Shown here piece after piece: positions 1,291 to 62,183 of a DNA stretch of 64,000 nucleotides (position 1 is the first letter of the stretch; every line of letters starts with the position of its first letter). Source of the DNA: Panopea generosa. Lineage: Eukaryota; Mollusca; Bivalvia; Adapedonta; Hiatellidae. Where the stretch lies: NCBI GenBank assembly GCA_029582155.1, contig CM055894.1:29319707-29383706 (forward strand). The letters run 5' to 3'. A model generated the notes under the pieces. That model was not told where the DNA came from. It did no database searches and was given only the letters and a program-made list of their open reading frames with translations. Both the position numbers and the translations under genes were made by a program.

Positions 1291-1589
1291 CATTGATTTT
1301 TGGAAGATGAGTGTAGCGAGGCTTCTATAGTCATCAAATTGCCTATTTATGATTTTGTTCTATAACGTTTGTTATACTGTGGATGGCAGGGCTTATGTCT
1401 TGATAAATTGTCCGTCGTTTGTCTGTCCATTAACCTTATTCTTGTAGATGCGATAGCACTTTCATTTTTTATTGAACCTTAACTAAACTTGCAAAGCTGT
1501 TATATGACGACAAGATCTCGGACGAGTTTTTGAATCAGCATAATTCGACCACAAATGCCTCCGCCACAGGGCTTACAAGTACATTTTAT

Positions 1590-2798
1590 TTATTTATTTA
1601 TTTTTTTTCAGACTCCCATTTGGATGACCCATTTATTCTCCCCATCCTAGGTGTGCGGTGGTCGGGGAGGACCATCCCCCTACACACCTTACAATTTCAA
1701 AATAAATATATATATCTATATCAATAGCATATAAAATAATTCAACACATTCATTCATCTTTCATTCCTCAAAGAATTCAATTTTGTAAATGTACAATACT
1801 TTATAACTGTATATATATTACTTGATCTCTATTAAGAATGGGGAGAATAAAAAATAAAAAAAGAGAAAAGAAAGGTGAAGATAATAGTAATGATAATAAA
1901 AAATATTGGGGATAAGGTGGGGGGGGGGGGGGGGGGGGTTGCCAAAAGAGGTTGAAGCAAATACCAAAAACATATACAATCCACATCCAAGTTTGATTTT
2001 TTTTTTAAATTAAAGAGAAAAAAACAATAACAAAAACAGACTATATATAAATATGTTATTTTACAGGATAAGTTTAAGTATGATACTCCAGTCTTCCTCA
2101 TATTTGTCAGATAGTCCGTTCTTAACAGATATACATCTATTTACGTCAAACATGGATTTCATACTCATCAGGAGTCCTTTATAGGAAGGAGTGGCCTCCA
2201 AGCATCTACTTGCATAAATGTATCGTTTTATCTCAAGAATTAACAAGTTCTCTGTTAATGTTCTTTTATCATTTTTTAAAATCCCAAATAGAAGCTGAGT
2301 TTCATTCCATTGTACTTGAATATTTATATTATTTAGATGCATTATTACATTTGATAAAAGTTCTTGTGTTTGAGAGCAATGCCAAAAGATACGTTGCAAT
2401 GTTTCTGTCTGTTTCTTACAAAAAGTACATTTTGCATTTGATTTAATCTTTATCAAAGTGAGGTACCTATTAGTGGGGAGAAATCAATGTAGAAGTCGAT
2501 ATTGTAACCACTGGAGTTTAGTGTCTCTTGTTACTTGGAAAGGAATGTTATAGTATATATTCCAATCATTTTCATTTATATCATTCATTTCATTCCATTT
2601 ATTCTGGCTTGTTGGTTTCTCATTATTTCTATTTAAAACGTCATATATTGGTTTAGTCCAAGTTTTGTTTTTCAATATTGGAAACACATGTAATGGAATG
2701 AAAGGATTTGGTTCCTTTTTATGTTCACTTTACAGTTTATTGACTTTTTTAAATTGTTTGATTGCTGTTGTCATACCGAGCAAATGTAGATAGTTATT
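1590..2798 (-). mobile_element. 5'-truncated non-LTR retrotransposon (LINE), C-terminal part of ORF2
   Basis: Two minus-strand frames, 2687-2484 and 2456-2061, together resemble the end of a LINE ORF2. The first has FQVTRDTKLQWLQYRLLH, a motif typical of the region after the reverse transcriptase in L1/Tx1-like LINEs. The second has the Cys/His knuckle CTFCKKQTETLQRIFWHC. A frameshift separates them and no reverse transcriptase remains, so the copy is dead on arrival. Its 3' end (low coordinates) has an A/T-rich tail (tttatttatttatt at 1588 on the plus strand) and a run of about 20 G at 1919-1938. Flanks at about 1468-1589 and 2799-2920 are near-identical direct repeats. The clade assignment is tentative. 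Confidence 0.72.
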
Positions 2799-3784
2799 TT
2801 TTATTGAATCTTAACTAAACTTGCAAAGCTGTTATATGACGACAAGATCTCGGATGAGTTCTTGAATCAGCACAATTCGACCACAAATGCCTCCGCCACA
2901 GGGCTTACAAGTACATTTTAAGCAAACTTTTAAAAAACATTTTCTCTGAAAGTTTAAGGCCTAGAACTCAGATATTTTACATGTAACATTGCATGGGAGT
3001 CTCCTAAGATTTGTTGAAGTCAGGGTCCCTGAGGTTAAATTTGGCGCCACCACAAGGGTCACCGTTTTACATAGTTATATAGGGATAATGTTGTAGACAC
3101 GATATCACCTTCATTTAACATTGAATCTTAATAAAACTTGCAAAGCAGTTATATACACGATCTCCCATGAGTTCTTGAACCAGCGTGATTCGATCACAAA
3201 TGGCCCCACCACATCGCTTATAAGCACATTTTAAGCAAAACTTTAATAACATTTTCTCTGAAAGTTTAAGATCTAGACCTTAGATAATTTACATATTGCA
3301 TTGCATGGAGGTTCCCTAAAAGATTTGTTGAAGTCGAGTTCCTGGGATCAAATTGGGGACCGCAACTATGTTTTACATAGAATTATATAGGGAAAATGTT
3401 GTAGATGTGATGGCACTTTCATTTTTCATTAAATATTGACCAAACCTGCACAACAATTATATAATCACAAGATTTCGGAAGAGTTGTTGAACCAGCGGGA
3501 TTTGACTATGAATGCCCCCACCACATATAAGCACATTTTAAGTAAAATTTTAAAAAACTATTTTCTCTGAAAGTTCAAGTCCTAGACCTTAGATATTTTA
3601 CATGTAGCATTGCATGGAGGTCCCGTTTGTTGAAGTCAGGTCCCTGGGGTCAAATTTGGGGCCGCCACAGGGGTCACTGTTTTAAATATCGAGTTATATA
3701 AGGAAAATGTTGTAGATGTAATAGCACCTTCATTTTTCATCGAATCTTAACCGAACTTGCACAGCAGTATATAACCACAAGATC

Positions 3785-4463
3785 GTCCGTCTTGCGCCTG
3801 TAAACAATTGATATTTACCACTTCTTCTCATTAGCTGTAAGCTCAATTGTAATGAAATGCTGTATGCAGCTTTGGTACCTAAGTGTGAATCAAAATTGTG
3901 AATTGCATGGTCCCCACACCACTGGGGCCCTGGGGGTGGGGCCAAAACAGTTAAATTTAAGATGTTTTTTAATGGTTTTTAGTGATATCTGTTGCTGCTG
4001 ACATGGCGGTAAATGTTTATGTTATAGTGAGTGCTTGCTCCCACACCCCCCACTCTGTAATCTTGGGCCTGGGCCAGAACAGTCAAATTTAAGGTAAACA
4101 TTAAAAAGGTGATCGCAATATAAATCCCTTGAAACTAAGTCTCAGGTGACCTAAAAATCTTCTTATTATAGGAAGCACTTGAAAACAAATTGTAAGCATA
4201 TTTAATGAGGTTTATGACTGAGTCCATTAAAAAAATTGTGAATTTCATGCCCCTGGGTCTAATGGTTTGATCCTTGTGGTGGGTTCTACTTTACTAAATT
4301 CATATAAGAGAATAGGATGTGATTCGTTGATGCTGATATGACATTCACAATCACAATTCATGTTTGGATTTTCCCCGCATCCCTTAGGACAAAAGTTTGA
4401 ACATAAATTCATATATCTTTATGTCATTAAGGATAATCAGGTGACTGTTAAGGCCCATGGGCC
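3785..4463 (+). mobile_element. Fragment of family 6 tandem-core element nested in family 5
   Basis: It shares blocks with 45201-46266, including CAATTGTAATGAAATG, GCAGCTTTGGTA, GAATTGCATGGTCC and GGGGCCAAAACAGT. It ends in a perfect hairpin (AGGCCCATGGGCCT) plus CTTTT. The host unit is cut at ccacaagatc (3784) and a family 5 unit resumes at about 4464. Confidence 0.62.
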
Positions 4464-4775
4464 TCTTTTCATTTAATCTTTACCAAACTTGCACAGCAGA
4501 TATGTTATCACAACATCTTAGACAAGTTCTTGAACCAGCGTGATTTGACCACAAATGCCCCCGCCGCAGGGCTTATACGCACATTTTAAGCGAAACTTTA
4601 AAAAACATTTCCTCTGAAAATTCAAGTCCTAGACCTTAGATATATTAAGTCTAGCATTGCAATGTGGTCTCTTAAAAGATTTTTTGAAGAGGAACTTACA
4701 AAAAACATTTCCTCTGAAATGTTTATCTGTCCATTTATTGCCAAGGGGACGATTTAGGCCCTCTTGGGCCTTTTG

Positions 4776-10242: not shown

Positions 10243-10256
10243 ACCATGTAAAGGAA

Positions 10257-14001: not shown

Positions 14002-14017
14002 AAACATTTATATTTAG

Positions 14018-14499: not shown

Positions 14500-15200
14500 T
14501 ATACCCCCGACAAACAAAGTTTGAGGGGGTATATTGGAGTCACCCTGTGGTCGGTATGTCGGTCTGTCGGTCGGTCTGTCTGTTGCAATTTTCCTTGTCC
14601 GGAGCATCACTTGAAAAGTACTGGATGGAATTTCATCAAACGTCATACAATGGTAGAATATAATGAGAGGAAGTGCAGTGTACAAGAATCATAACTATAT
14701 TCTTGCTAATTACAGAGTTATTGCCCTTTGATATTTTTTTCTTGTCCGGAGCATAACTTGAAAAGTACCGGATGGAATTTCATCAAGCTTCATACAATGG
14801 TAGAATATAATAAGAAGAAGTGCAGTGTACAAGAAACATAACTCTCTTCTTGCTAATTACAGAGTTATTGCCCTTTGATATATTTCCCTTGTCCTGAGCA
14901 TTACTTTTAAAGTACTGGATGGAATTTCATCAAACTTCATACAATGGTAGAATATAATGAGAGGAAGTGCAGTGTACACGAAACATAACTCTATCCTTGC
15001 TAATTACAGAGTAATTGCCCTTTGATAAAAAATTTGTTTCTTGTGTTACTGTTTCTTGTCAAACTTTTGTCCTTTTTGTCTGGAGCATAACTTTAAAACT
15101 ATTGGATATAATTTAATAAAACTTCACACAATGGTAAACAATTTTCTGTCATGGCGGCGTTCGGGGGTATTCATCACCTTCAGTGATAGCTCTAGTTTTT
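14500..15200 (+). mobile_element. Tandem-core element, family 7 (ATACCCCC hairpin)
   Basis: The 5' hairpin ATACCCCC...GGGGGTAT (14504-14531) is followed by a GTCGGTCTGTCGGTC tract and three units of about 150-160 bp containing TTGTCCGGAGCATAACTTGA, ATGGAATTTCATCAAAC and GAGGAAGTGCAGTGTACA. The end is CGGGGGTATTCATCACCTTC followed by a T run. A diverged relative lies at 21720-22135. Confidence 0.72.
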
Positions 15201-19888: not shown

Positions 19889-21568
19889 ATTTTTATGTCC
19901 CCCCCATCCCCCCTCCCCAAAAAATTTTTGGGGTGGCATATACGGTAGTTATCGCAGCGTCCGTCCGTCTGTCAAGGTCAAGGTCACACTTTGAGTCTGT
20001 GTGAGATTTCGTGTTCGGCCTATAACTTTGTCATGCATAGATGAATATTAATGATACTTGCTACAAATGATCAACATAACAAGACGACGTGTTGTGAGTA
20101 AAACCCACATCCGTACCTCAAAGGTCAAGGTCACAATTTGGGTTTGTTTAACAACACTTTGAGTCTGTGTGAGATTTCTTGTCCGACCTGTAACTTTGTC
20201 ATGCATAGATGGATTTTATAAATACTTGCTACAAATGATCAACATGACATGACGACGTGTCGTGAGTAAGACCCATACACGTACCTCAAAGGTCAAGGTC
20301 ACACTGAGTTTGTTTGACAACACTTTCAGTCTGTTTGAAATTTCGTGTCTGGCCTGTAACTTTGTCATGCATAGATGGATTTTGTTAATACTAGCTACAA
20401 ATGAGCAGCATAACATGACGACATGTCATGAGTAAGATCCACACCAGTACCTCAAATGTGAAGGTCACAATTTGAGTTTGTTTGACAACACTTTCAGTCT
20501 GTTTGAGATTTCATGTCTGGCCTGTAACTTTGTCATGCAAAGATGGAATTTGTTAATACTAGCTACAAATGATCAACATAACATGGCGATGTGTCGCGCA
20601 TTACACCCAGATTCCCATTTCAAAGGTCAAGGTCACAATTTAACTTTGTTTGATGACACTTTCAGTCTGATTGAAATTTCTTATCCAGTCTGTAACTTTG
20701 TCACCTATGAATACATTTTAAAAACACTTGGGCTCAATTCATCAATATGTCGTGATGTGTCACGCGTAAGACCCACATGTGTACCTCAAAGGTCAAGATT
20801 ACACTTTGAGTTTGTTTGACAACACTGAGTCTGTGAGATTTCATGTCCAGCCAGTAACTTTGTCATGCATAGATGGATTTTATTAATACTTCTTACAAAT
20901 GATCAACATAACATGACGACCTAATGCACTTAATACCTAGACTCTCACTTGGCTCAGTTGATCAACATGACATAATTAAATGTCCCATGTAAGACCCAGA
21001 ACCTTTCCTCAACAGTCAAAGTCACACTTTCAATTTGTTTGATATTGCGTGTCTGGTCCGTGACTTTAACTTGGCTCAATTTATCAAGATGACATGACGA
21101 CATGTCATAAGTAAGACGTAAACCTGTTCCTCAAATGTCAAGGTCATACTTTTAGTATGTATGACAACACTTTGAATCTGTTTGAGATTTCAAGTCCGTC
21201 CTTTAACTTTATCATACATGGATGGATTTCATAAACACTTGGCTCAATTTATCAATTGATCAACAATTTATCTGTAACTTTTGTCTTACATTTAGGGATT
21301 TTAAAATAGCTTGACACAAGTGATGAGCATGTCATGATGATGTTTCACCTGCATTTAACTGTTGAAATACCGAGACCATTACATCAGATGTCAAGGTCAA
21401 GGTTACACAAAGGTCAAGGTCATGCTTTAATGTAAAATAAACATGAAATTGCATGTGTCCATTACTTTTGATATTCATGGATACATCGCTACCTATTATA
21501 ACATATATTATTATTTTTCACAGACCATTTGGGGGGCATGCGACACTTACCAGTGACATTTCTTGTTT
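19889..21568 (+). mobile_element. Tandem-core element, family 4, copy 1
   Basis: The 5' hairpin is CCCCAAAAAATTTTTGGGG, then GCGTCCGTCCGTCTGTC. Units of about 170-190 bp contain CAAAGGTCAAGGTCACA, CTGTAACTTTGTCATGCATA and CAACATAACATGACGA. The end is GGGGGGCATGCGACACTTA...CTTGTTTTT. A second copy lies at 36313-38218 and a distant relative at 42880-43470. Confidence 0.82.
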
Positions 21569-22187: not shown

Positions 22188-23535
22188 TTTTTAGCTCACC
22201 TGAGCCAAAGGCTCGCAGGTGAGCTTTTGTGATCGCTTGGTGTCCGTCGTCTGTCATCCGTCGGCCGTCGTCTTTCGTCCATGCTTAACTTTTAGCTTCT
22301 AACAACTTCTCCTCTAAAAACACTGGACCAATTTTGATATAACTTTACAGAAATGTTCCTTGTGTGACCCTCTACCAAGTTTGTTCAAGCCATCTTGATT
22401 CTTCAAAAAACATGGCCACCAGGGGGCGGGGCAATGTTCCTTGGGTGACCCTCTACCAAGCTTGCTCAAGTCATCTTGGTTCGTCAGAAAACATGGCGGC
22501 CAGGGGGGCGGGGCAATGTTCCTTGGGTGACCCTCTACCGAGCTTGTTCAAGTCATCTTGGTTCGTCAAAAAACATGGCGGCCAGGGGGTGGGGTTAGTT
22601 TATTATGTAAGCTAATTAGTAAAATCTTAAAATATCTTCTTGTCAAAAACTACTTGCTCAATTTTAAAATAATATCACAGAAATGGTCCTTGTGTGACCC
22701 TCTACCAAGTTTGTTCAAGTCATCTTGATTCGTCAAAAAACATGGCGGCCAGGGAGTGGGGTTTGTTTACAATATAAGCTATAGTAAAAACTTAAAAAAT
22801 CTTCTTGTCAGAAAGTACTGGCTCAATTTTAAAATAATTTCACAGAAATGTTCCTTGGGTGACCGTCTACCAAGTTTGTTCAACCCATCTTGATTTGTCA
22901 AAAAACATGGTGGCCAGTGGGTGGGGTTAGTTTACTAAATAAGCTATAGTAAAAACTTAAAAAATCTTCTTGTCAGAAACTACTGGTTCGATTTTAAAAT
23001 AATTTCACAGAAGTGTTTCTTGGAGGAACCCCTACCAGTTTTGTTCAAACCGTAGTGATTCGTCAAAAAATATGGCGGTCAGGGGATGGGGTTAGTTTAC
23101 TATATAAGCTTTAGTTAAAACTTAAAAAATCTTCTTGTCAGAAACCACCGGATCAATTTTAAAACAACTTCGCAGAAATGTGCCTTGGGTGACCCTTTAC
23201 CAAGTTTGTACGAGCCGTTGTGATTTGTTGAAAACATGACCGCCACAGTGAGGTGCTAGTTTACTATATAGGCAACTATAGTAAAAACTTCAAAAGCCTT
23301 TTTGTCAGAATCTACTGACCTGATTTCAATGTTAGTTCACTGACATTTATCATGGGTGAACCCTCTACCAAGTTTGAACTCTTCTACGCATCTGTTACAT
23401 CTTCAAAACAAATCAAAATTCTTGCCCATCTCGTTTTCATGGAATTTTAAGTGTACATGTATTATATAATCTTCTAAGTTGGGTGACTCAAGGTCAGTCA
23501 GGTGAGTGATATAGGGCCATCTTTACCCTCTTGTT
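22188..23535 (+). mobile_element. Tandem-core element, family 1, copy 1
   Basis: It starts TTTTTAGCTCACCTGAGCC aaa GGCTCGCAGGTGAGC, a long 5' hairpin. Next come GTCCGTCGTCTGTC and GGCCGTCGTC tracts, then about seven units of about 155-175 bp with CCTTGGGTGACCCTCTACCA, AAAAACATGGCGGCCAGGG and AATCTTCTTGTCAGAAAC. The end is GACTCAAGGTCAGTCAGGTG followed by TATAGGGCCATC and CTCTTGTTT. The CAGGTGAGC word occurs in the 5' hairpin and near the 3' end. Short frames through the array are not genes. Confidence 0.85.
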
Positions 23536-23727: not shown

Positions 23728-25917
23728 TTTTTAGCTCTACTGGCCAAAGGCCAGAAGGGCTTATGCGGTGGCGTGTTGTCTGTAGTTTGTCGTCTGACGT
23801 CTGTCATCTATTAGCAGCCTTTTCTCTGAAACCATTAAGCCAATTAAACAACTTCACATGGATGTTTCTGTTGCATAGGAGACTATACAGAATTTTTACA
23901 GAACCGCCATTACTTAAAATAGTCTAAAACTTAAAAAATCTTCTTCTCATGAACGGCCCAACAGATTTTGAAAATGTTTATGTAGTTATGATAACCACCT
24001 ATAGTTCTACTAGATTTTTTCAAATGGTTTCCCTGGGGTTAAGAATGACCCCGCCTTGAGGGTTTAATTCGGGGACACAATCATGTCATTAAAATAAACA
24101 TTAAAAAAATTTTTTAAAAAGGAACTGATTTTGCCTATATTTTCACAAAAGCATTGATTGGTCAAGGAGGTTCAAATTTAATAGAAATCTATAGCAACAG
24201 ATATAGGCTAAAAGTCAATTATTTGTTTTTAATCCTAAATTCTGTTAAGGTTAAAAAAATACATAAACTAAAAAACTCTTATTATTTTTAGCGGAGGGTT
24301 CAATTAGGGGACACATGTCAATTATAATATTTTTTTTTTTTTTTATCAATAGAAATGAGTTTGCCTATATCTTCACAAAAGCATTGTTAGGTGAAGGAGG
24401 TTCAGATTTGTAAAAATGACTGGGTTCCAATGTCTTAAGGGGTCAGGAGGGCAAAAGGGTAAAAATTTGGAATTACAAAAAATGTTTTCTTAAGAACCAG
24501 TAAGTCAGATTTGTTCATATTTGGCATAAATTATCCTAATGTGTAGGGGTTTGATTCCAGATAAGAATTTAGGGACTAATATTTATAGGGGCCCTGTAAG
24601 GGGACTTGGAATTTTACATAGGGATACTATGGGAAATCAGAATTTTTTTTCATCTTTTTAGGCAAAATTATTATTTAATATGAGTTCTGAAGTATCATCT
24701 AGTCATAGGAAATTAGATTTGGTTCAATAAGGAGAATTGACTTTCCATAACCGGCCAGGGCGGGGAAAAAAGGGTCAAAATAGAAAAAAATTAAAAATTT
24801 TCTTTTCAACAACCGGTCAGTCAAATTTGTTCATATTCATATAAATTATCCCAATGAGTATGGGTTTAAAGTTTGTACAAATCAAGGGTGTTGGTATTTA
24901 TAGGGGCGCTGTAAGGGGGCTTTGAGTTTTATATAGAAATACTTTTGGAAAACAGTAAATTCTCTCTTTTTTTCATTCATTTATGACTTTTTTATTCAGT
25001 TTGAGTTTTGAAGCATATTCTAGTCATAACAAAAAAGGTTTTGTTCAATACTTATATGGATTGACTTTCTAAAAGGGGCCAGGTGGGGTCATGAAATGAT
25101 TTCAACAATCGGTCAGTCAAATTTGTTCATATTTGATATAAATTATCTCTATGATTAAGAAATCTAAGTTTGTACAAATCAAGGGGCACTGGGATTTATA
25201 GAGGCCCTGTAAAAGGTCTTTGAGTTTTACGTATGAATACTATGGGAAAATGGAAAATTCTCATTTTTGTAAATATGTTGTTTAATTTGAGATCTTAAAT
25301 ATTGTCTAGTAACAATAAATTCGATTTTGTTCAGTAAAGATGATTGAATTTCCATAAGGGGCCTGGGGGTGGGTGGGGCAATAAGGTTAAAATTTGGAAT
25401 TTCACAAAGCTTCCTCTCAATAACCTTTCAGTCAAACTAGTTCATATTTGATATAAATATCCTTACATCAGTAAGTTTTGGAGATTCTGCATATCATTGG
25501 GTTGGGATCTATTGGGGCCCTGTAATATGACTTTTATTGTTACATAGGAATATTATAGGGAAAGCTGATTATTTTAATTTTTTGCATCCATGTACAAAAA
25601 CTTCTTTTTAAAATCTAAAGCATTTCTGCTCATAACATATCCCCAAAAGTGAGTGATTGAAGTTCTGACAAATTAAGGGGCTGGGTTGTATAAGGGTTCT
25701 GTACGGGGGCTATATGTGTTTACAGATGAATGGTATGGACATTTAAAGTATTTACTTTCATTGCAATAAGGTTTTTGTTCAGTATGGGTGTGGTGGGGGT
25801 ATTTATCCATAAGTTGTTAAAAGGACCCTCGAAGAGGGTAAATATTGTGAAATTTCAAAAAGGCTATGGCCACTATGATTCAGTAGAGTGTCATCAGACC
25901 CTTTTGGGCCTCTTGTT
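23728..25917 (+). mobile_element. Tandem-core element with CTGGCCaaaGGCCAG start (family 10)
   Basis: It starts TTTTTAGCTCTACTGGCC with hairpin CTGGCC aaa GGCCAG, then TTTGTCGTCTGACGTCTGTC. Units of about 300 bp contain GTTCATATTTG, GGGGCCCTGTAAGGGG, TTTTACATAGGGATACTATG and CTCAATAACC. The end is AGACCC tttt GGGCCTCTTGTT. The 59-bp block at 24181-24239 is shared exactly with 62865-62923. A related copy ends the cluster at 55014-56260. Confidence 0.78.
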
Positions 25918-36300: not shown

Positions 36301-36312
36301 AGAATCACACTT

Positions 36313-45200: not shown

Positions 45201-46266
45201 TTTAGGTCACCCGAGACTTTGTCTCAAGGGACCTTTTGCGATCGCCTTTTGTCCATCGTTGTGCGTCCATAAACAATTAACATTTTCAACTTCTCAAAAA
45301 CCGTAAGTTCAATTGTAATGAAATGTTGTATGCAGCTTTGGTATGTAAGGGTGAATCAAAATTGTGAATTGCATGGTCCCCTCCCCCCTGGGGCATTGGG
45401 GGTGAGGCCAAAACTGTCAAATTCAAGGTAAACTTTAAAAATCTTCTTAATATACGAAGCACTGGGAAACAAATGGTGAGCATGATCATAGACAGATATG
45501 GGTCCTTTATAAAAATTGTGAATTGCATATGCAGTCCCTGGGTCTTGCTAATTGGCCCTAAAAAAATTTAGTGCATCTGTAAACAATTAATATTTTCGGT
45601 TTCTTCTCAAAACAGTGAGCTCAGTTGTAACAAAATGTTGTTTGCAGCTTTGGTACCTAAAGGTGAATGAAAATTGTAAATTGCATGGTCCACATCCCCC
45701 TTGGGCTTTAGAGACAGGGTCAAAACAGTCAAATTTAAGGTAAACCTTAAAAATCTTCTGGGACTGGGAAACAATATGGACACATATGGGTCCTTCATAA
45801 AAATTGTGATTTGCATGTCCCTGGGTCTCAGGGTCTGGCCCCAGGGGTGGGGCCTACTTTACTAAATCTATATAAGAGAAAATGACAAAAAACGTTATTT
45901 CTTATGACTAATTAGACTTGTGTGAATGTCTTTTTGTGTGATTTGTTGTTGCTGACCTGGTGGTTAATATCTATATCCAAAATGTCTTAGGGGCGGATTG
46001 GGGCCAAAACAGTCCAGTTCAAGGTAAACTTTAGGAATCTTATTATTATAGGAAACACTTAGAAATAAATTGTGAGCATGATTATTGATGACTATGGGTC
46101 CTTAAAAAAAAATTGTGTATTTCATGTCCCTGTGTCTCACCGTTTGGCCATGGGGGGTGGGGCCTACTTTACTTAATTTATATAAGAGAAATTGACAAAA
46201 AACATTATTTCTTATGACTGAATAGACTTACATGAATGTTTTCTTTGATAATAAGGCCCTCTTGTC
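45201..46266 (+). mobile_element. Tandem-core element, family 6, complete copy
   Basis: The 5' hairpin AGGTCACCCGAGAC ttt GTCTCAAGGGACCT is followed by TCGCCTTTTGTCCATCGT. Units of about 310-330 bp contain GTGAATTGCATGGTCC, GGCCAAAACAGTCAAATT and TATAAGAGAAAATGACAAAA. The end is AATAAGGCCCTCTTGTC. Confidence 0.75.
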
Positions 46267-46889: not shown

Positions 46890-48838
46890 ATTAGCTCACC
46901 TGAGCAAAGTTATTCTGATCTCCTGTTGTCTGTAATCCCTCTGTCCATTAACTTATTTGTTGTGTGCACTCTAGCACCTGCAATTTTCATTTGATATTCA
47001 CTAAACTTTTAGAGTAGTTATATAACCATAATAACTCAGACAAGTTCTTGAACTGGCCAAATCCGATTATTAATGTCAGAGTTATGGCCCAGGAAACATT
47101 AAAAAATGCACTGTTTGACCATGTGTGCATTCATTTTTATTTGATCCTCAGCAAACTTACCTATTAGTTATATAACCATAAGTTCTTTAACTGGCTAAAT
47201 CAGAATATTAATGTCAGAGTAATGTCCCTTCAATTGCCAAAAACTGCACTATTTGACTGTGTATGCATCTAGCACTTGCAGTTTTCATTTAATCTTCGAC
47301 AGACTTACACACTTATTATGTAACCAAAATATATTGAACGAGTTCTTGAGCTGGCCAATCATATAAATATTGTCAGAGTAATGGCCCTTAAATTGTCAAA
47401 AATTGGGTGTATTTGATGCTGTGTGCTCTCTAGCACTCACAGTTTATATTTGATCCTCATTAAACTTACACAGTTGTTATGTGACCATACTATCTTGGAG
47501 TTCTTGAACTGGCCATATTGGATAATTAATGTTGGGTGTTATGGTCCTTGAATCAACAAAAAATACTTTATATGAATTTATGTACACTCTAGCACCTGCA
47601 AAAATTGCCTTCTTTGGCATTGTCTCCTCAACCGCAGGTGAGCGATTTAGGCCTATTCTGGCCCTCTTGTTGCATTTGATCTTCATCAAACTTAAACAGT
47701 AGTTATATTAGCATAATATCTCCGACAGGTTCTTGAACTAGCTAAATCAGAATATTAATGTCGGAGTAATGGCTCTTGAATTTTCAAAAACTGCACTTTT
47801 TTACCTTGTGTGCACTCTAGCACCAGCATTTTGCATTTGATTCTCACAAAATTTATACAGTTGGCATATAACCATAAAATCTTGGATAAGTTCTTGAAAT
47901 GGCCAAATCGGGTAATTAACGTCAGATTTTACCCTTTACTTCATATTGACGCCTTTGGACACCTAATATAGAAGGCTTTTGAATTACTGGGTGAATTATG
48001 TTTATATTAACTGACAGAGTGGAAAATAGTGCAGGAAGTGTTCAGATTGCTCATTACGAGCAATCTGAACTCTTCCTGGATTTTTTTAAAGGCCTTCAGT
48101 GATTGGTGCGGGAAAACGCATATCTATAGAGTAAAGGGTTAAGGCCCTTGAATTGTCAAAAATTGCATTATTTGACCTTGTGTGCATTCTAGTACTCACA
48201 ACTTTCACTTGATGTCAACGAAACTTACATAGTAGTTACATAACACTAATATCTTGAAGTACAGTTTCTGCTTAAATCAGATAACTATTGTCACAGTTAT
48301 AACCTTTGAATCATCAAAAATGTGTTTTTCTAGCATATGGAGTTTTTATTTGATCCTCATTAAACTGATAGAGTAATTATATACTATAATATCAAGGACA
48401 AGTTTTTGAAACCGCCCTTGAATTGTCAAAAATTGTGATATTTGTCCTTGTGTGCATCTAACACTTGCAGTTTTCATATAATATTCGACACACTTACACA
48501 GTTATTATGTAACCATAAAATATTGAATAAGTTCTTGAACTGGTCAATCGGATAAATATTGTCAGAGTTATGGCCCTTGAATTGTCAAAAGTTATGTGTA
48601 TTTGATGTTGTGTGCACTCTAGCACACACAGTTTATACTTGATCTTCATTAAACTTACACAGTTGTTAACCTTAATATCTTGAACTGGTGAAATTGGATA
48701 ATTAATGTCGGTGTTATGGTCCTTGAATCAACAAAATTGCATTATAAGAATTTTTGTACACTCTAGCACCTGCACAAATTTGGCGTTGTCTCCTCTGCCA
48801 CAGGTGAGCAATTTAGGGCCAGTTTGGTTGGCCTCTTT
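46890..48838 (+). mobile_element. Tandem-core element, family 3, copy 3, apparently two elements joined
   Basis: It starts TTAGCTCACCTGAGCAAAG. Units as in 16642-19550. A first 3' end (CGCAGGTGAGCGATTTAGGC, CTGGCCCTCTTGTT) occurs at about 47632-47673, after which units continue to a second end (CACAGGTGAGCAATTTAGGG, GGCCTCTTTGTT) at 48838. A 207-bp MITE sits at 47932-48138. Confidence 0.72.
47932..48138. mobile_element. 207-bp fold-back MITE with TTA target duplication
   Basis: It begins CCCTTTACTT and ends GAGTAAAGGG, with TTA at 47929-47931 and 48139-48141. The target inside the family 3 unit can be read from other copies. In the centre, 48032-48078 forms a hairpin with 20-bp arms (CAGGAAGTGTTCAGATTGCT pairing with its complement, one mismatch). 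TTA targets point to PIF/Harbinger or a relative. Confidence 0.85.
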
Positions 48839-49436: not shown

Positions 49437-52030
49437 GCTCTACTTGCCAAAGGCCAGCAGGGCTTATGTCATGGTAAATTGTCCGTTGTCCGTTTGTCTG
49501 TTAATCTTTTTCTTTTAGACACCTAGACGTTATATATTTTACATGTAGCATTTCATTGGGGCCCCCTAAAAGATTTGTTGAAGTCGCATCCCGTGGGTCA
49601 AATTTGTGGCTGCCACGGGGGTCACCGTTTAACATAGAGTTATGTAGGGAAAATGTTGTAGACACAATAGCACCTTCATTTTTAGCTCACCTGAGCCAAA
49701 GGCTCACAGGTGAGCTTTTGTGATCGCCTGGTGTCCGTTGTCTGTCGTCCGTCGTTAACTTTTAGCTTCTAACAACTTCTCCTCTGAAACCACAATTTTG
49801 GTATAACTTTACAGAAATATTCCTTGGGTGACCCTCTACCAAGTTTGTTCAAGCCATCTTGATTCTTCAAAAAACATGGCCGCCAGGGGGAGGGGCAAGT
49901 TTAATTATTAAAACTTAAAAAATCTTCTTGTCAGAAACTACTGGCTCGATTTTAAAATAATTTCACAGAAATGTTCCTTGGGTGACCCTCTACCAAGTTT
50001 GTTCAAGCCATAGTGATTCATCAAAAAATATGGTGGGCAGGGGGTGTGGTTAGTTTACTATATAAGCTACTTAGCTGTAGTATAAACTTAAAAAATCTTC
50101 TTGTCAGAAACTTTTGGTTCGATTTTAAAATCATTTCACAGAAATGATCCTTGGGTGACCCTCTACCACGTTTGTTCAACCCATCTTGATTTATCAAAAA
50201 ACATGGCGGCCAGGGGTTGGGGTTAGTTTACTATAAAAGCTATAGTAAAAATTTAAAAAATCTTCTTGTGAAAAACTACTGGCTGGATTTTAAAATCATT
50301 TCACAGAAATGATCCTTGGGTGACCCTCTACCAAGTTTGTTCAAGCCATCTTGATTCGTCAAAAAACATGGCGGCCAGGGAGTGGGGTTAGTTTACTATA
50401 TAAGCTATAGTAAAAACTTCAAATATCTTCTTGTCAGAAACTACTGGCTCGATTTTAAAATAATTTCACAGAAATGTTCCTTGGAGGAACCCCTACCAAG
50501 TTTGTTAAAACCGTAGTGATTTGTCAAAAAATATGGCGGTCAGGGATGGGGTTAATTTACTCTATAAGCTACATAGTAAAAACTTGAAAAATCTTCTTGT
50601 CAGAAACCACCGAATCAATTTTAAAACAATTTCACAGAAATGTTCCTTGGGTGACCCTTTATCAAGTTTGTTCGAGCCGTTGTGATTTGTTAAAAAACAT
50701 GACCACCACAGTGAAGTGCTAGTTTATTATATAGGCAGCTATAGAAAAACTTCAAAAGCCTTCTTGTCAGAATCTACTGACCTAATTTCAATGTAATTTC
50801 ACTGACATTTACCATGGGTGAATCTCTACCAAGTTTGAACTCTTCTATGCATCTGTTACATCTTCAAAACAAATCAAAATTATTGCCCATCTCCTATTTC
50901 TGGAATTTTAAGTGTAATTGTATTATATAATCTTCTTAAGTTGGGTGACTCAAGGTCAGTCAGGTGAGCGATATAGGGCCATCTTGGCCCTCCTGTTCAT
51001 TGAATCTTAACCAAACTTGCACAGCAGTTATATAACCATAAGATCTCGGACGAGTTCTTGAACCAGCGTCATTCGACCATAAATATTCCCACCACAGGGC
51101 TTATAAGCACATTTTAAGAGAAACTTTAAAAAATATTTTCTCTGAAAGTTCAAGACCTAGACCTTAGATATTTTACATGTATCATTGCATGGGGGTCCCC
51201 TAAAAGATTTCTTGAAATTTTGTAAAAATGACTGGGTTCAACTGTCTTAAGAGGTCAGGAGTGGCCCCAAAAGGGTACAAATTGGGAATTACAAAAACTG
51301 TTTTCTTAAGGACCGGTCAGTCAGATTTGTTCATATTCGGCATAAATTATCCCTATATGAAGGGGTTTGACTGAAAATAAGAAATAAGGGACTAATTTTT
51401 TTAGGGGCACTGTAAGGGGGACTTAGAACTTTACATAAGGATACTATGGAAAAACAGAAAATTCTCATTTTTTTATCCATTTTATAAGCACATTTTAAAA
51501 GAAATTTTCTCTGAAAGTTTAATACCTAGACCTTAGATTTTTTACATGTAGTATTGCATGGAGATCTAGTAAAGCATCTGTTGCCAGTAGAGCTTTCAGG
51601 TCTTTCTTATTTAATTATCTCCCTTTATTATATTTTATTATGCTTGTCCTGAACATAACTCAAAAAGTTTTCAAGGGATTTAGTTGATATTTCACACAAT
51701 TATAGAGGACATTGAGAGGAAGAGCAGTGTGCAAGAATCATAACTCTTTCTTCTGTCTTTACATATTTTTTTCTTTGTTATTATATTTATTATGCTAGTC
51801 CAGAACATAACTCAAAAAGTGTTCAAGGGATTTAGTTGATATTTCACACAGTGATAGAAGACAATGAGAGGAAGTGTCTTCACAGAATTAGTTTCCTTTG
51901 TTTTTTCCCCTTGTTTGGAACATACCTTGAAAAGTTTTGAAGTGAATGCTTTGAAATTGCGTACAGTGATTTGCTTTGGCAGGGGGATTGGACATGTCCA
52001 ACAAGGCTCTTGTTGATCTGGTATATATGC
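49437..52030 (+). mobile_element. Nested mosaic: family 5 broken by family 1, then family 10 and family 13 pieces
   Basis: Family 5 starts at 49437 (CTACTTGCCAAAGGCCAGCA, TTGTCCGTTGTCCGTTTGTC) and is cut at CACCTTCATT. A whole family 1 element follows (49678-50998), and family 5 resumes with CATTGAATCTTAACCAAAC. At about 51215 it switches to family 10 (CTGGGTTCAACTGTCTTAAG), returns to family 5 near 51480, and from about 51600 becomes family 13, ending AAGGCTCTTGTTG. Confidence 0.72.
49678..50998 (+). mobile_element. Tandem-core element, family 1, copy 2 (complete)
   Basis: Perfect 5' hairpin AGCTCACCTGAGCC aaa GGCTCACAGGTGAGCT, then CCGTTGTCTGTCGTCCGTCG. Seven units match the copy at 22188 closely and in the same order. 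The 3' end has hairpin AGGGCC atctt GGCCCT and CCTGTT. It interrupts a family 5 unit, which fixes both borders. Confidence 0.88.
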
Positions 52031-52610: not shown

Positions 52611-52611
52611 G

Positions 52612-52682
<71 letters not shown>

Positions 52683-52949: not shown

Positions 52950-52961
52950 CATACCTAACAT

Positions 52962-53290: not shown

Positions 53291-56260
53291 ATTTTTAGAT
53301 CTACTGGCCAAAGGCAAGAAGGGCTTATGTGATAGTGCGTTGTCCGTCTTCTGTCTTCCTGTCATACGTCGTCTATCGTCTGTTAGCAGCACTATCTATG
53401 ATACCACTAGGCCAATTAAACTCAAACTTCACATGGATGTTTCTCTTGCATAAGAGACTATACAGAAGAATTTTTTTGTTCAATCTGAAATTCAAGATGG
53501 CCACCATTACTAAAAATAGTCCAAAACTTCTCGTGAACTGCCTTAAAAGATTTTGAAAATATTTATGTAGTAATGCTAACCAACTATAGTTCTATTAGAT
53601 TTGTTCAGATGATGTCCCTGGGGTTAAAAATGACCCCGCCCCGAGGGTTCAATTAGGGGACACATGTCACTATAATGAACATTTTTTTTTTTAAAAAGGT
53701 ACTGACTTTGCCTATATTTTCACAGAGGCATTGTTTGGTCAAGGGATTCAGATTTGTAAAATCGACTGAGTTCCTCTGTCTTAAGGGTAAAAGTTGGGAA
53801 TTACAAAATTCGTTTTCTTAAGAACTGATCAGTTTGTTAATATATGGCATAAATTATTCGTATGTGTAGGGATTTGAATGAAGATAATAAGTAAGGGGCT
53901 AATATTTAAAGAGGCCCTGTAAGGGGACTTAGAATTTTACATAGGGATACTATGAGAAAATTCTCATTTTTTCATCCATTAGAGCAAAATTATTATTCAA
54001 TTTGAGTTCTGAAGCATCATCTAGTCATAGGAAATAAGATTTGGTTCAATAAGTAGAATTTACTTTCCATAAGAGGTCAGGGTAGGTGAAAAATGGGTTG
54101 AAAGAGAAAATTTTAAAAATCTTCCTCTCAACAATTGGTCTGTCAAATTTGTTCATATTTGATATATATATTATCCCATTGAGTATGGGTTTAAATTTTG
54201 TACAAATCGAGGGGCTTGTATTGATAGGGGCTCTGTTTGGGGACTTTAATTTTTACTTAGAAATTCCATGGGAAAATAGAAAAGTTCTATTTTAGCTCTT
54301 CTGGCCAAAGGCCAGCAGGGCTTATATTATGGTAAATAGTCCGTCATCCTTCATCGTCGTCTATCCGTTAACCATTTTCATGTCAACGTGATAGCACCTT
54401 CATTTTTCATTGAATTTTAACCAAACTTCCACAGCAGTTATATAATCACAAGATCTTGAACCAGCATGATTTGACCACAAATGCTCCCATCACAGGACTT
54501 ATAAGCATTCTTTAAGCCAAAACAATTTCTCTGAATGTTTAAGGCCTAGACCTAAGATATTTTACATGTAGCATTGCATGGAGGTCCCCTAAAAGATTTG
54601 TTGAAGTTTAATTTGGGTCCCTTGGGTTAAATTTGGGCCGCCACAGGGGTCACTGTTTTACATAGAGTTATATAGGAAAAATGTTGTAGACACGATAGCA
54701 CCATCATTTTTCATTGAAACTTGCACAGCAGTTATATAACTACAAGATCTCGGACGAGTTCTTGAATCAGCGTCATTCGACTACAAATGCCTCCGCCACG
54801 GGGCTTATAAGCACAGTTTAAGAGAAACTTTAAAAAACATTTTCTCTGAAAGTTCAAGGCCTAGACCTTAGATATTTTACATGTATTATTGCATGGAGGT
54901 CCCCTAAAAGATTTGTTTAATTTGCAACCCTGAAGTCAAATTTGGGGCCGCCACGGGGGTCACTGTTTTACATAGAGTTATATAGACGTTGTAGATGCAA
55001 AAGCACCTTCATTTTTAGCTCAACTGGCCAAAGGTCAGAAGTGCTTATGCGATGGTGCGTTGTCTGTCGTCCGTCGTCTGTCGTCTGTTAGCAGCACTTT
55101 CTCTGAAACTACTAGGCCAATTAAACTGAAACTTCACATGCATGTTTCTGTTGCATAGGAGACTATACAGAAGATTTCTTTTTTTCCATCTGAAGTTCAA
55201 GATGGCCGCCATTACTAAAAATAGTCCAAAATTTAAAAAATCGTTTTCTCATGAGCGGCTCAACAGATTTTCAAAATGTTTATGTAGTAATGATGACCAA
55301 CTATAGTTTTGTTAGATTTGTTCAAATTGTGTCCCTAGGGTTAAATATGACGCCGCCCCGAGGGTTCAATTAGGGGACACATGTCATAATAATATTTTTT
55401 TTATTTTTTTTTTAAATGGAAATGATTTTGCCTATATCTTCACAGAAGCATTGTTTGTTGAAGGAGGTTCAGATTTGTTAAAATGACTGGGTTCCACTGT
55501 CTTAAGGGGTCAGGAAGGGCCCCAAAAGGGTAAAAATTGCGAATTACTAAAATCGATTTCTTAAGAACCGGTATGTCAGATTTGTTCATATTTGGCATAA
55601 ATTATTCCTATGTCTGGGGGTTTGACTGCAGATAAGAATTAAGGGGCTAAAATTTATAGGGGCCCTGTAAGGGGACTTGGAATTTTACATAGGGATACTA
55701 TGGGAAAACAGAAAATTCTCTTGGATGGAGTATCCAAAAGGGCCCAAGCTAAGGATTAAAATTGTGAAATTGAAAAAGTCTTGCTCTCAATAACCTTTAT
55801 ATTACACTTGTTCATTATCCTTATACCAACAATGGATTAAATATTCTGTAAATCAAGAGACTGGGATGTATAGGGCCCATGTAAGGTTTTACTTTTACAT
55901 TTGAATATTATAGGGGAAAACTGCACTTGTTCATTTTCATATTCATGTGTAAAAAAAACCTTCTATTTATATTCTTAGCATTTCTGCTGATAACAAATCA
56001 CTATGAGTGGATGATTAAAAATTTGACAAATCAAAGGGCTGGGTTGTATAAAGATCCTATACAGGGACTATTTGATTGGTATGGGAATTTAAAATATTTC
56101 CTTTTCATAGCAATTAACTTTTTGTTAAGTATGGGTGTGGTGGGGGTATTTATCCATAAGCGGTTAACACGACCCCCAAAGAGGGTTAATTATTATAAAA
56201 TTTCCAAAAAAGAGCAATGGCCACTATAAACAAGTAGAGAGGCCTCAGGCTTCTTGTTTA
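53291..56260 (+). mobile_element. Serial cluster of family 10, family 5 and family 10 elements
   Basis: Three 5' ends are visible: TAGATCTACTGGCCAAAGGC at 53296, AGCTCTTCTGGCCAAAGGCC at 54296 and AGCTCAACTGGCCAAAGGTC at 55017, each followed by a GTCCGTC- or GTCTGTC-type block. Only one clear 3' end is present, GAGAGGCCTCAGGCTTCTTG at 56236-56255. The first two therefore look truncated or interrupted by the next. Frames such as 55927-56229 are repeat-derived (the same peptide pattern appears at 25730-25936). Confidence 0.72.
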
Positions 56261-57420: not shown

Positions 57421-57842
57421 TTTTAGCTCGACTATTCGAAGAATAAAGAGCTATTCTACTCACCCTGGCATCTGCATCACACCTTAGTTAAAGTTTTGCA
57501 TGAAAGTTACTATGATCTCAGTTACCATTGCATGTATTGGATTGAAACATTATACAAGACTTTCCAGTCACCAAACTACTACAATAAATAAGTTAGATAA
57601 CTCTTGTATGAATATAATGCAAATAATGGCCCTTCTTTGACTTAGAAATTCTGGTTAAAGTTTTGCATGCAAGTACCATCAAGTCCATATCTCAGCAAAC
57701 AATCAATGTATTTGATTGAAACTTTACACAGGACTTTTCAGTGACAAACCTACTACAATAACTAGGTTAGATAACGCTTACATGAAACTATTGCAAGTTA
57801 TGGCTCTTGTTTGATTTAGGGCTTTTCCAGAATTAAATGAAT

Positions 57843-57882
<40 letters not shown>

Positions 57883-60255
57883 GGACGGCACTTATTTTTT
57901 TTACCCACAGAGCATAAAATTTAATTGTGATATATACCACCATGCATAAAATTTTAATTAGATAAAATACCACCATGCACAAAATAAAAATAAAAAAGAG
58001 GCTAAAATCCCCTTTCTAATGTTTTCTTATTGTAACGCATCCAAAATTACTAGTCTGGACGGTTGCCTACTTTCTTTGAAGTACGCTGACGTTACACTTT
58101 TGATCTAATACCGATATGCAAGTGATTACGTCACAAATTACCTCAGGTCGAGAATTAAATAAAGGGGCACTACAGATAACAAACGAGAAAAAAAACCCAC
58201 AACATAATAATAATTAAAGGTTAGTGTTTGTTTGTAACTAGTTGTCTTCTAAAATGTTTATTTACAGTATACTAATTTCTTAAAAAAGAATTACTATTAA
58301 ATTGATACGATCCGTAAAGAGAGTTATGCTACACATGCCTAAATGTATGCACAGAATGAACACGCTGTCCCTTTCATTAACGCCTTGTGCCAATGTCCGA
58401 TGACGTCACTCTGACAGTGAAACAAACATTATTATGACACATGTTATTTACTCCCTACTATCTATAAAAGTTTAACCTAATTTGACCTCATTTCGCACAC
58501 CCGATGTCAAACAATCCAGTTATGGATGCTCAAAGACAATTTCACTGTCCAATTTATGTTTTTGTACGACCGTTAAGAAATATCTGCTTTTCGCCATGAT
58601 TTTTTCAGACACTGGGGTAAGAATGAGGCGTATAGGGTGTGGGATGACATATCTGAGAATGTGGATTTTATTTTCACTGCTAACGCAATGTCCTAATTTA
58701 GATTTTTTGTCACAATAGACTTTGCATTTCTTGGTGTTTCTTTTTGTGCCGAGTAAATTAGTGTTTTACACTACCTGACAAACAGCGCGGATATGTATAT
58801 AATTATAGCAATGCCACCGTAGAGTTGAATCGTAGTTTTTGCGGTATTTAATAATATACACGCCTGTATATTCATATCCGTATTGGAGTATTTGTTAACA
58901 TATCCGATACGTCAAATATTGATATATAATTCGTAAAATTTACTTGAGGAGATAATTTTGTGACACGGCATCTCGGCATCAATTTAATAAAGTAGACATG
59001 GTTACGGCCTGCTACGAGTGTATTCCGCCATCTGATTAGCTCGTACATTTCCGTGTTAATAATTTATTCACGACTAAGAGTATGTTTCTTGTCCCTTTTC
59101 GGGAAGTCTGAAGGTAGATAATTATACTTTGTTTCAAACAAACAAATTAAATCATATGTTGTTGTCAGGTGATGTAATTATATTATGGCGGTCTTAACAA
59201 AAAAAGATCAATCAGTATGAGATGAAAAAGTTAATTGAAGACAATTCCTAATATTAACATCACCAGTGTGTCCAGTGTCCAACTGTGTAGTCGCGTAAAA
59301 CGTTCACTTGGTCATGATGTCTGGAGGTTATGTATTACAATCGTTACAACACGCGTGTTAGTGGCAAACATAAAGGTCAAATCAAGGTAAATTTAAAAGA
59401 CCTGCAGTTTCTGCTGCGATAAAGATAAGACACTCGCCGAAATCTAGACGCTGCGGGATGTTGACTCGGTGCGGTACATGGGGAAGGACAATTTTATGTT
59501 TTTGTATATGACAGGAGGAAATATCTGGGCAGAAAATGTATAAAATTTCGAGAAGAAAAACGGTGTTGAAGAAAAAATTCGGTTCAGAGACGGAAATACC
59601 GGCAAGGCATAAAATTTTAATAAGCTTTTACCCCGCAAGGCATCATTTTTTTTTATGAAAACACCCGCCAGGCATAAAATTTTAATTAAACTGCCGTCCG
59701 ACCCCCCCCCCCCCCCATACATTTAATTTTGGAAAAGCCCTTAGAAATTCTGGTTAAAGTTTTGCTTGCAAGAACTATCAAGTCCATATCTCACCAACCA
59801 CTCCATGTATTTGACTGAAACTTCACACTGCACTTTCAAGTCATCAAACCTACTACAATAATAAGTGAGATAACTTTTGCTTGACATGTAATGCAAATTA
59901 TGGCCTTTATTTGACTTGGAAATTCTGGTTAAAGTTTTACGTGCAAGTACGATCAAGTCCATATTGCACCAACCACTCAATGTATTTGAATGGAACTTCA
60001 CACAAGACTTCACAGTCATCAGTAACCAAGTTATATAACTCTTGCTTGAATATAATGCAAATTATGGCCCTTATTTGAATTAGAAATTTTGGTTAAAGTT
60101 TATATCTCAGCAGGCACTGCATGTTTTGGATTGAAACTTTATACTAGGTTTTGAAGTTATAAGACTGACACAATTAAGTGAGACAACTCTTATTTGTACT
60201 TTTGTGACAAATGATTTGAATAGTCCAGCATGCTGTCTCACGGACTGCTCTTGTT
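57421..60255 (+). mobile_element. Tandem-core element, family 9, interrupted by a Harbinger-like element
   Basis: The 5' hairpin AGCTC gac TATTC gaa GAATA aa GAGCT is followed by units of about 170 bp with AAATTCTGGTTAAAGTTTTG, AAGTACCATCAAGTCCATAT and GAAACTTCACAC. There is no strong GTCCGTC tract in this family. The end is CATGCTGTCTCACGG, CTGCTCTTGTT. The insertion at 57819-59740 splits one unit cleanly. Confidence 0.75.
57819..59740. mobile_element. 1.92-kb PIF/Harbinger-like element (TTA target), non-autonomous
   Basis: Inverted ends GGGCTTTTCCAGAATTAAAT and ATTTAATTTTGGAAAAGCCC continue through a G run (57843-57880, 38 G; on the right 59702-59716, 15 C) into TTGGACGGCA and TGCCGTCCGA. 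TTA is duplicated at 57816-57818 and 59741-59743, and the unoccupied site can be read from neighbouring family 9 units. Subterminal copies of GCATAAAATTTTAAT occur on both sides. The interior has only short frames and no transposase that I recognise. Confidence 0.85.
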
Positions 60256-60919
60256 CACAAAACTATTAGCTTCAAGAAGCATCACTTTGTATAAATATTA
60301 AATTGTTAAAAATATATCAGCTTATATAACTAGCGTATATCAGAGTCAAGCAGTATATAACTTATGAGCCATATTGAAAACTAAATTTTGTTTGCCTACA
60401 CCTAAATGACTGTGTCAAAAAGCTAAAGAAAAATCTGCAGTTTTTATTTACTGCCTGTATATGTAGCCTATGAATAAATAATAATGTAAAAGTAACCTAC
60501 CAACTTATAAATCAATTTTATTAGGTTTAACACAAGTATGCTTAGCTTTGCAAACAAATACCAATGCCTTTGGACAATCACGTCTTTCTTATGGAAAGTT
60601 TAGAGTTAAAATCGAATAATATTATAAAAAGTCATTGATATTTATCATTTTAAATTTATTGTGTAACCAAACATCTAATTATACAATTCGGAAAAAGACT
60701 AATCCAACCAATTTTATCCTTTATGTAAATTTTATTTCACTATAGAGTATATACAAAAACAGATTGGATTTATTGTATTATGAAAGTACAATGTGTAATA
60801 TAGATAATGTTGATTTAATTATTGATAATGTAATAAGAAAAAAAAATCAAAATTGGTTGAAACATTTGCACCCATTTTATATTGAATATTTGCAATACTG
60901 TTTTATAACATTACACTAT
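60256..60919. other. AT-rich sequence without recognised features
   Basis: Nothing supportable on either strand. Confidence 0.5.
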
Positions 60920-62183
60920 ATTTTAAGCTCACCTGAGCCGAAGGCTCACAGGTGAGCTTTTGTAATCGCCTGATGTCCGTCGTCTGTCGTCCGTCGTTAA
61001 CTTTAAGCTTTTAACAACTTCTCCTCTGAAACCACTGGGCCAATTTTTATATAATTTCACAGAAATGTTCCTTGGGTGACCCTCTACCAAGTTTGTTCAA
61101 ACCATTTTGATTCGTCAAAAAACATGGCGGCCAGGGGTTGGGGTTAGTTTACTATATAAGCTATAGTAAAAACTTAAAAAATCTTCTTGTCAGAAACTAC
61201 TGGCTTGATTTAAAAATATTTTCACAGAAATGTTCCTTGGGTGACTTTCTACCAAGTTTGTTCAAGCCATCTTGATTCGTCAAAAAACATGGCAACCAGG
61301 GGCTGGGTAATTTTTTTTATGTCAAATTTACTCCCCCTGTTTTGTCTGTATATAGCAATTATTATAAGAAGAGGTAATAAACTCTTTAAATAAACTTTTT
61401 TTTGCTATTATTATACAATATTATACTAGATATAAGTTTTAAAAGATAATTCATCATAAAAAGATGAATGATACAATTATAATCAATTATTGAATATTAT
61501 TCAAATATCATTAACCATTTTAAAGTAGGTGTTTTTCTGAATATAACAGTCAGAGTTTTTATGGTTCAGACAGGGATGGTTAACTGCTTCACAACAAAGC
61601 AATACCATATTTTTAGCTAGTTTCTTCACAGCAAGAAGTCTGCTTGAGATTTTCAGTGTCGAAGTGTAACTGAAATGTTGGAGGAGGAGCTTAATTGTTT
61701 TTTGGGGAGAGTGCACTGCGACAATGATTCTTTCAAGTGATATACTTTGGGAAGGCTTGTGTTTGAAACTCATAGGAATATTTATTGTGCTGGAACTGAG
61801 GATTGTTTCATGCACAATAGTTTGGTCTGATGCTTTAGTTTGAAACCGTTCTCAAACATAACAGGTTAGTTTTGTGCTGGAACTGGATATTTATCTTACT
61901 AGTTCGAAAACTAGTCATCTATAGTAAAAACTTCAGAAGCCTTCTTGTTAGAATCTACTGACCTGATTTTGATGTAATTTCACTTACATTTACCATGGGT
62001 GAACCTCTACCAAGTTTGATTTCTTTTACGCATCTGTTACATCTTCAAAACATAAAAATTCTAACTACTTGCCCATCTCGTCTTTCTGGAATTTTGAGCG
62101 TACATGTATTATATAATCTACTTATGTTGGGTGACTCAAGGTCAGTCAGGTGAGCGATATAGGGCCATCTTGGCCCTCTTGTT
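60920..62183 (+). mobile_element. Tandem-core element, family 1, copy 3, with a foreign block of about 0.6 kb
   Basis: It starts AAGCTCACCTGAGCC gaa GGCTCACAGGTGAGCTTT and CGTCGTCTGTCGTCCGTCG. After about two units it breaks at CAACCAGGGGCTGGG (about 61306), then resumes at CTATAGTAAAAACTTCAGAAG (about 61921). The end is CAGGTGAGCGATATAGGGCC, TTGGCCCTCTTGTTA. The intervening 61307-61918 holds a minus-strand frame (61815-61501, 104 codons) without a known domain; the exact edges and any target duplication are unclear. Confidence 0.78.

Follow-up and report, generated by a model that had tools for sequence, protein, structure and literature searches.

How do tandem arrays with differing core repeats come to be bounded by the same kind of end? 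The question is raised by a 64,000-nucleotide stretch of the genome of the bivalve Panopea generosa (assembly GCA_029582155.1, contig CM055894.1, forward-strand positions 29,319,707 to 29,383,706; hereafter the window, with positions counted from its first letter), which is rich in tandem arrays, the longer-period units being 71 to 338 bp. In a self-comparison of the 64-kb window, the arrays together with their flanks fell into dispersed families, and by reading the flanks we defined eight of these, A to H (members are given as A1, A2, and so on). We conclude that the elements are very probably non-autonomous rolling-circle transposons of the Helentron/Helitron2 class, that is, Helentron-associated interspersed elements (HINEs).

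Both ends are present in seven families (A and C to H), whilst the 3′ end of family B is uncertain, as we found none that pairs with its 5′ end. The common plan starts with a T-run and a 5′ hairpin that contains the subterminal inverted repeat (subTIR), after which there is usually a GTCY microsatellite and then the tandem core. After the core come a matching 3′ subTIR, a palindrome, and a terminus resembling CTCTTGTT. The words of this plan lie largely on one strand of the window (plus/minus: GTCCGTC, 14/0; GTCTGTC, 16/3; CTCTTGTT, 9/0; TTTTTAGCTC, 6/0; and the shorter TTAGCTC, 13/3). An initial annotation, made from the letters of the window, had quoted five types of 5′ hairpin, all of which we located; the GTC block that it assigned to most families is indeed usual, but by eye is absent from family H. 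No ends of the common plan were seen by eye at a 71-bp array (32343-34276) or a 177-bp array (14012-14488).

One line of evidence is the pairing of the two ends. In families A, C, D, E, F, G, and H, a word near the 3′ end matches, in reverse complement, the outer arm of the hairpin at the 5′ end; these words are unlike between most families, yet both ends of a family match. The pairs are GCTCACCTG/CAGGTGAGC in both A and D, CTCTACTG/CAGTAGAG in C, CCCCCAAAT/ATTTGGGGG in F, ATACCCCCGA/TCGGGGGTAT in G, and, with one mismatch, GCTCGACTATTC/GAATAGTCCAGC in H, whilst E has just GTCACC/GGTGAC. The best pairs measure 6-12 nt, with or without a mismatch. In family A, CAGGTGAGC was confirmed close to either end, as the initial annotation had stated; the 5′ copy reads GCTCACCTG, and the 3′ copy is the reverse complement of that word. 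Summed over the seven families, the within-family match is 61, compared to 40 for a direct-orientation control. Only 2 of 5040 label permutations reach 61, namely the true labelling and the one that swaps A with D, which share their word. The 3′ end of family G was located by the subTIR word GGGGGTAT itself, and so is not independent; the permutation result is 2/720 without G, 1/120 without D and G, and 1/24 without D, E, and G. Single pairs are not fully separable, since some between-family scores are 9-10, nearly all of them A with D.

The position of the 3′ subTIR is also nearly fixed. The gap between it and the last base is 27-29 nt at 10 of 13 ends, the exceptions being 19 nt (C3), 20 nt (E, where the end was cut at CTCTT), and 32 nt (D6). 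At the 5′ side, T runs of 2-5 nt are located 0-3 nt ahead of the subTIR in all 11 ends measured; B1, B4, and F1 were left out of this measurement, and of these B1 and F1 have a T run whereas B4 (49436) has none. The matched subTIRs, the 27-29 nt spacing, and the common orientation discussed below are additions to what the initial annotation contained.

To compare the terminal hairpins with ordinary sequence, 45-nt ends (fourteen 5′ and fourteen 3′) were folded alongside 3000 random 45-mers from the window. The mean folding energy is −8.1 kcal/mol for the 5′ ends and −4.8 kcal/mol for the 3′ ends, compared to −2.1 kcal/mol for random sequence (Mann-Whitney, 1e-8 and 9e-7, respectively); as the hairpins themselves guided part of the choice of ends, the p-values serve as description and not as proof. 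Hairpins are present at both termini, save for the weak 3′ ends. Eight of the 28 ends (5′ C2 and D1; 3′ A1, C1, D7, F1, G1, and H2) fold in an ordinary manner, with 17-37% of random 45-mers as good or better, whilst five of the fourteen 3′ ends (A2, A3, B3, D1, and E2) fold better than 95% of them. The 3′ terminal hairpin given by the initial annotation is weak in families F, G, and H.

Nine of the fourteen 5′ ends have a stem of at least 5 pairs closed by a 3-nt loop within their first 30 nt. In seven of these nine (A1, A2, A3, B1, C1, G1, and H1) the loop is C(AAA)G or C(GAA)G; the remaining two are C(TTT)G in E1 and A(TTA)T in F2. An AAA loop on a stem of 2-3 pairs is found in B4, C2, and C3, and D1 and F1 have no such hairpin. 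Counted by distinct stems, C(RAA)G closes four of six (A, B/C, G, and H versus E and F). Outside the elements it closes none of 93 such hairpins, and 1 of 273 when stems of at least 4 pairs are considered; the pattern was spotted first and counted afterwards. The C(A/G AA)G loop may be new.

Where the elements insert can be read most directly at A2, which lies within a family B core. Its left flank ends in CACCTTCATTTTT and its right flank begins with CATTGAATC. Four uninterrupted copies of the B core were found by pattern, and read CATTTTTCAT in three cases and CATTTTTTAT in one. The A2 site is therefore a T5 tract, T5|C, without duplication beyond the Ts, whose side is ambiguous. In other B cores, the same T5 tract is adjoined by the 5′ end of C3 and by the 3′ end of the family E remnant (4467).

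Taken together, the pairing of subTIRs, the near-constant distance to the 3′ end, the hairpins at the termini, the empty site in a T tract, and the repeated nesting at one T tract argue for non-autonomous Helentron-type elements with different cores, as the initial annotation had proposed as its leading inference. In such a system, an autonomous Rep-helicase protein encoded elsewhere would recognise the paired subTIRs and terminal hairpins, copy one strand into a single-stranded intermediate, and insert the copy at T tracts; the tandem core would travel as passenger sequence, and one enzyme, the single machinery suggested by the initial annotation, might serve all of the families.

Several observations weigh against this assignment. 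No autonomous partner was found within the window, and none of the 29 stop-to-stop frames of at least 90 aa in the window matches a Pfam Helitron family. F, G, and H have a weak 3′ palindrome, and nine of the fourteen 3′ ends, all those of these three families included, do not reach the 95% folding level. The 5′ arm of E scores 7 with A and H, compared to 6 with its own 3′ end. The subTIRs have 6-10 matches as scored, which is below both the classification rule of PMC4067079 (at least 11 bp, identical within a family) and the 11-12 bp of oyster elements (PMC7492417; papers are cited by PMC number). There is just one empty site with both flanks. Finally, family H lies between two imperfect copies of a 32-bp direct repeat (57386-57417 and 60267-60298; 87.5% identity). 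Target duplications, to which the initial annotation had pointed as a sign of another class, are absent at A2 beyond the ambiguous Ts, but a direct repeat is present at H. The left flank of H holds a second, weaker match to this repeat; this suggests that the repeat is an older local one, although it may instead be a duplication made by insertion.

The Pfam search of the same 29 frames, in which minus-strand frames were scanned without their first codon, gave no transposase family, although a badly broken Rep-helicase remnant in shorter frames could escape it. Matches below the cut-off comprise zf-RVT in one frame and a few others at E 0.01-0.08. There are no stop-to-stop frames of at least 200 aa in the window, no Rfam matches at gathering scores, and no tRNAs according to ARAGORN. 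Viral contigs and the genomes of bacteria and archaea were searched for relatives without a match, and five end-sequence words, looked up in the searchable full-text literature, returned just papers with unrelated titles.

Nearly all of the element sequence points the same way. The two arrays without ends were among the 31 query pieces, for which we scored matches outside the query's own place; such matches count repeats, not insertions. There were 799 on the plus strand versus 2 on the minus strand, and the latter represent a single relation, an inverted piece of the family E 5′ end. In the self-comparison, 4 of 220 matches more than 1500 bp apart are inverted: the same E piece, two from a repeat resembling a short interspersed element (SINE; two copies plus, one minus), and the G-run/C-run piece of family H. 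This one-strand orientation may be new.

The explanation to which we incline, by a small margin in its favour, is that common orientation is a by-product of nesting, with insertion occurring in T tracts of older plus-strand elements. Nine of sixteen 5′ ends (A1, A2, B1, B4, C3, D1, D3, F2, and G1) have element sequence in the same orientation within 150 bp to their left, and A2 and C3 by their left flanks, and the E remnant by its right flank, occupy the same T5 tract of B cores. In contrast, A3, C1, C2, E1, F1, and H1 have no element match on their left and D2 has a chance-level one, and all of these are plus nonetheless, for which the fair-coin chance is 0.03 with six free insertions and 0.016 with seven. 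Nor are T runs of at least 5 nt commoner than A runs, either inside elements (90 versus 114) or outside them (150 versus 176), so that T-tract density is unsupported as the cause of orientation. Given nine nested 5′ ends and few free insertions, most of the strand coherence may come from nesting.

We regard as a long shot the alternative that insertion itself is strand-coherent over tens of kb, with a single-stranded intermediate entering the one template strand set by the direction of the replication fork or of transcription; as a companion to this idea, the C(RAA)G triloop would be read by its shape over different stems. A single 64-kb window cannot tell such an orientation domain from chance plus nesting. 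A bacterial precedent is IS200/IS605, transposons whose preference for the template of the lagging strand makes them a record of the direction of replication (PMC5371812). A literature search on Helitron or Helentron orientation versus replication direction found nothing, which does not establish its absence from print. Were orientation to follow replication or transcription, the host genome would hold in these elements a lasting trace of that process, and in the former case their orientation would record fork direction in an animal genome.

It is doubtful that the elements are driven by Helitron2 (a Rep-helicase without an endonuclease) rather than by a strict Helentron. Helitron2 is described as having hairpins at both ends and as inserting between TTTT and T or C, one group of FoHeli elements ends in CTCCTGT (PMC5148889), and the A2 site is T5|C. 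However, oyster HINEs that share this end plan and prefer TT are assigned to Helentrons (PMC7492417), the CTCCTGT group of FoHeli is described as lacking a 3′ hairpin (PMC5148889), and the single A2 site cannot separate Helitron2 from Helentron.

That the families are unrelated repeats (miniature inverted-repeat transposable elements [MITEs], satellites, and SINEs), alike through T-richness and short hairpins, is scarcely credible: the eight ends with ordinary folding, the two arrays without ends, and the direct repeats of family H are what it would have in its favour, set against the within-family pairing of ends and the constant spacing at 10 of 13 of them. Canonical Helitrons (Helitron1) start with 5′ TC and end with 3′ CTRR. 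Our elements start with a T-run and then AGCTC or similar, end in CTCTTGTT or similar, and at A2 have entered a T tract, whereas the canonical type inserts between A and T (PMC5148889); it was rejected. So was a MITE or other DNA transposon with terminal inverted repeats (TIRs), as all 13 ends measured have the inverted repeat set back 19-32 nt from the 3′ terminus, and A2 lacks a duplication, with the flanking repeats of family H as the counter-example.

How far the cores differ was tested by pairwise comparison. Eleven units (a set without two duplicate units from families A and F; the C, H, and E units were cut by hand) were compared as 55 pairs with 200 dinucleotide shuffles each. At p≤0.01 there are five pairs on the same strand versus one on the opposite strand, and four have z of 7 to 24: 14588/46542, 2796/35595, 14588/19986, and 22515/24768. 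These form the groups {14588, 46542, 19986}, {2796, 35595}, and {22515, 24768}, whereas 57641, 45262, 14012, and 32343 have no clear relative among the 11 units. The cores are therefore not all unrelated, and the proposal of convergent, unrelated cores is right only in part, given the homology within the four clear pairs.

The elements and their pieces are compiled in Table 1.

Table 1. Positions in the window of the elements of families A to H, and of their parts
Feature	Position	Strand	Description
Family A, element 1	22188..23535	+	T5-AGCTCACCTGAGCC hairpin, GTCY block, ~165-bp core, 82-bp units at core start
Family A, element 1, 3′ end	within 22188..23535	+	3′ subTIR CAGGTGAGTG, degenerate palindrome, CTCTTGTT
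Family A, element 2	49684..50997	+	Nested in family B core; both flanks usable for empty-site comparison
Family A, element 3	60926..62183	+	Interrupted: 60926-61314 and 61912-62183
Family B	54294..55014	+	CTGGCCAAAGGCCAG 5′ hairpin, 312-bp core; 3′ end uncertain
Family B, further pieces	5′ end 49436; truncated 5′ part 1386; cores 2796-3784, 4466-4690, 50998-51216	+	
Family C, element 1	23733..25917	+	CTGGCCAAAGGCCAG hairpin, subTIR CTCTACTG/CAGTAGAG, 3′ GACCCTTTTGGGCCTCTTGTT
Family C, element 2	53297..54293	+	5′ end and core, without a visible 3′ end; adjoins family B
Family C, element 3	55017..56258	+	5′ end at T5 tract of family B core
Family D, element	46893..47671	+	SubTIR GCTCACCTG/CAGGTGAGC
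Family D, other ends	5′ near 35499 and 16640; 3′ at 48841 and 19547		16640 (degenerate)
Family E, 5′ end and core	45204..46200	+	GGTCACCCGAGAC-TTT-GTCTC..
Family E, remnant	3785-4467		3′ end (CAGGTGACTG, GGCCCATGGGCC); inverted 5′-end piece 4104-4153
Family F, element 1	19895..21567	+	CCCCAAAAAATTTTTGGGG hairpin, 168-bp core, 3′ subTIR ATTTGGGGGGCAT
Family F, element 2	36312..38216	+	CCCAAATTATTTGGG hairpin, 168-bp core x7.9, 3′ subTIR ATTTGAGGGGCAT
Family G, element	14501..15197	+	ATACCCCC 5′ hairpin, GTC block, 147-bp core, 3′ subTIR GGGGGTAT
Family G, related pieces	22107; 46542, 48846, 51615		3′-end-like stub (22107); related cores (other positions)
Family H	57424..60255	+	TATTCGAAGAATA 5′ hairpin at 57433; core pieces 57487-57819 and 59740-60083
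Family H, 3′ end	3′ subTIR 60218; terminus 60255		3′ subTIR GAATAGTCCAG, terminus CTCTTGTT; interrupted, one element or two

A3 is split by ~600 bp of other sequence (61315-61911). A G38 run (57818-57880) and an inverted C-rich counterpart (59702-59741) stand on the two sides of the gap in family H, with 57818-57857 matching 59702-59741 in inverted orientation at 95%; the stretch between the two runs may be a separate insertion. Two family D pieces are separated by an imperfect inverted repeat of ~85 bp (17097-17180; GGGAGGTGATA..), which may be a small TIR transposon. The ~300-bp SINE-like repeat is located at 10234-10539 and 31813-32110 (plus) and at 52655-52970 (minus); it has a tRNA-like head by eye and is probably a SINE, although ARAGORN calls no tRNA in it. 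Its minus copy adjoins a perfect (TTGA)17 array (52612-52679). The zf-RVT match (E 7e-5, below the curated cut-off) lies in the minus-strand frame 2061-2480, probably a non-LTR (long terminal repeat) retrotransposon remnant. An open frame of 98 aa at 42343-42639 (plus) has no Pfam match; we take it to resemble part of a mariner-like transposase. An 11-bp unit of the CGCAAACGGAG type forms two short arrays (27163-27252 and 29173-29243), which lie ~2 kb apart.

Amongst known systems, the FoHeli elements of Fusarium (Helitron2; PMC5148889) share an asymmetric terminal inverted repeat and, in FoHeli3-5, the CTCCTGT end, whilst FoHeli1 and 2 have hairpins at both termini, with a 5′ loop printed as GAA. 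They differ in that FoHeli1 and 2 insert, according to the text, at TNAT|A and have the terminus ATTTT, FoHeli3-5 are without a 3′ hairpin, and the elements described carry transposase genes and measure 5-11 kb. PMC4067079 defined HINEs together with their Helentron partners, and the DINE-1/HINEs of insects and a mite described there resemble ours in their subTIRs, in an inverted repeat (IR) in the 5′ end of DINE-1, in the 3′ palindrome, and in a T-rich target without modification. In the mite, the subTIRs measure 12-15 bp and lie 38-60 bp from the 3′ end, whereas ours are shorter and mostly 27-29 nt from it. Pearl, MgE, and DTC84 of bivalves have a comparable architecture according to the description in PMC7492417; Pearl carries short arrays of ~160-bp core repeats.

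The closest resemblance is to the Cg_HINE elements of the Pacific oyster, of which PMC7492417 describes 11, with unrelated cores between related ends and T-rich targets without duplication. Compared by description, not by sequence, they share a 5′ subTIR with a complementary IR 1-12 bp away, a GTCY/GTCC/GTCK-type microsatellite in several elements, satellite-like cores (mostly 140-180 bp, with differing ~165-bp cores, some unrelated), a 3′ subTIR, a 3′ palindrome, and a T-rich target. The oyster subTIR is normally 11-12 bp and is shorter here, and oyster copies occur in both orientations, whereas in our 64 kb almost every copy is on the same strand. The initial annotation had thought that the 5′ hairpin might mark something undescribed. 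However, it corresponds to the subTIR and complementary IR already described for DINE-1 and Cg_HINE (PMC4067079; PMC7492417), and hairpins at both termini have been reported for Helitron2 (PMC5148889), so the hairpin is not new. A dense set of tandem-core elements is thereby, very probably, placed in an established transposon class, with a 5′ hairpin that belongs to its known plan.

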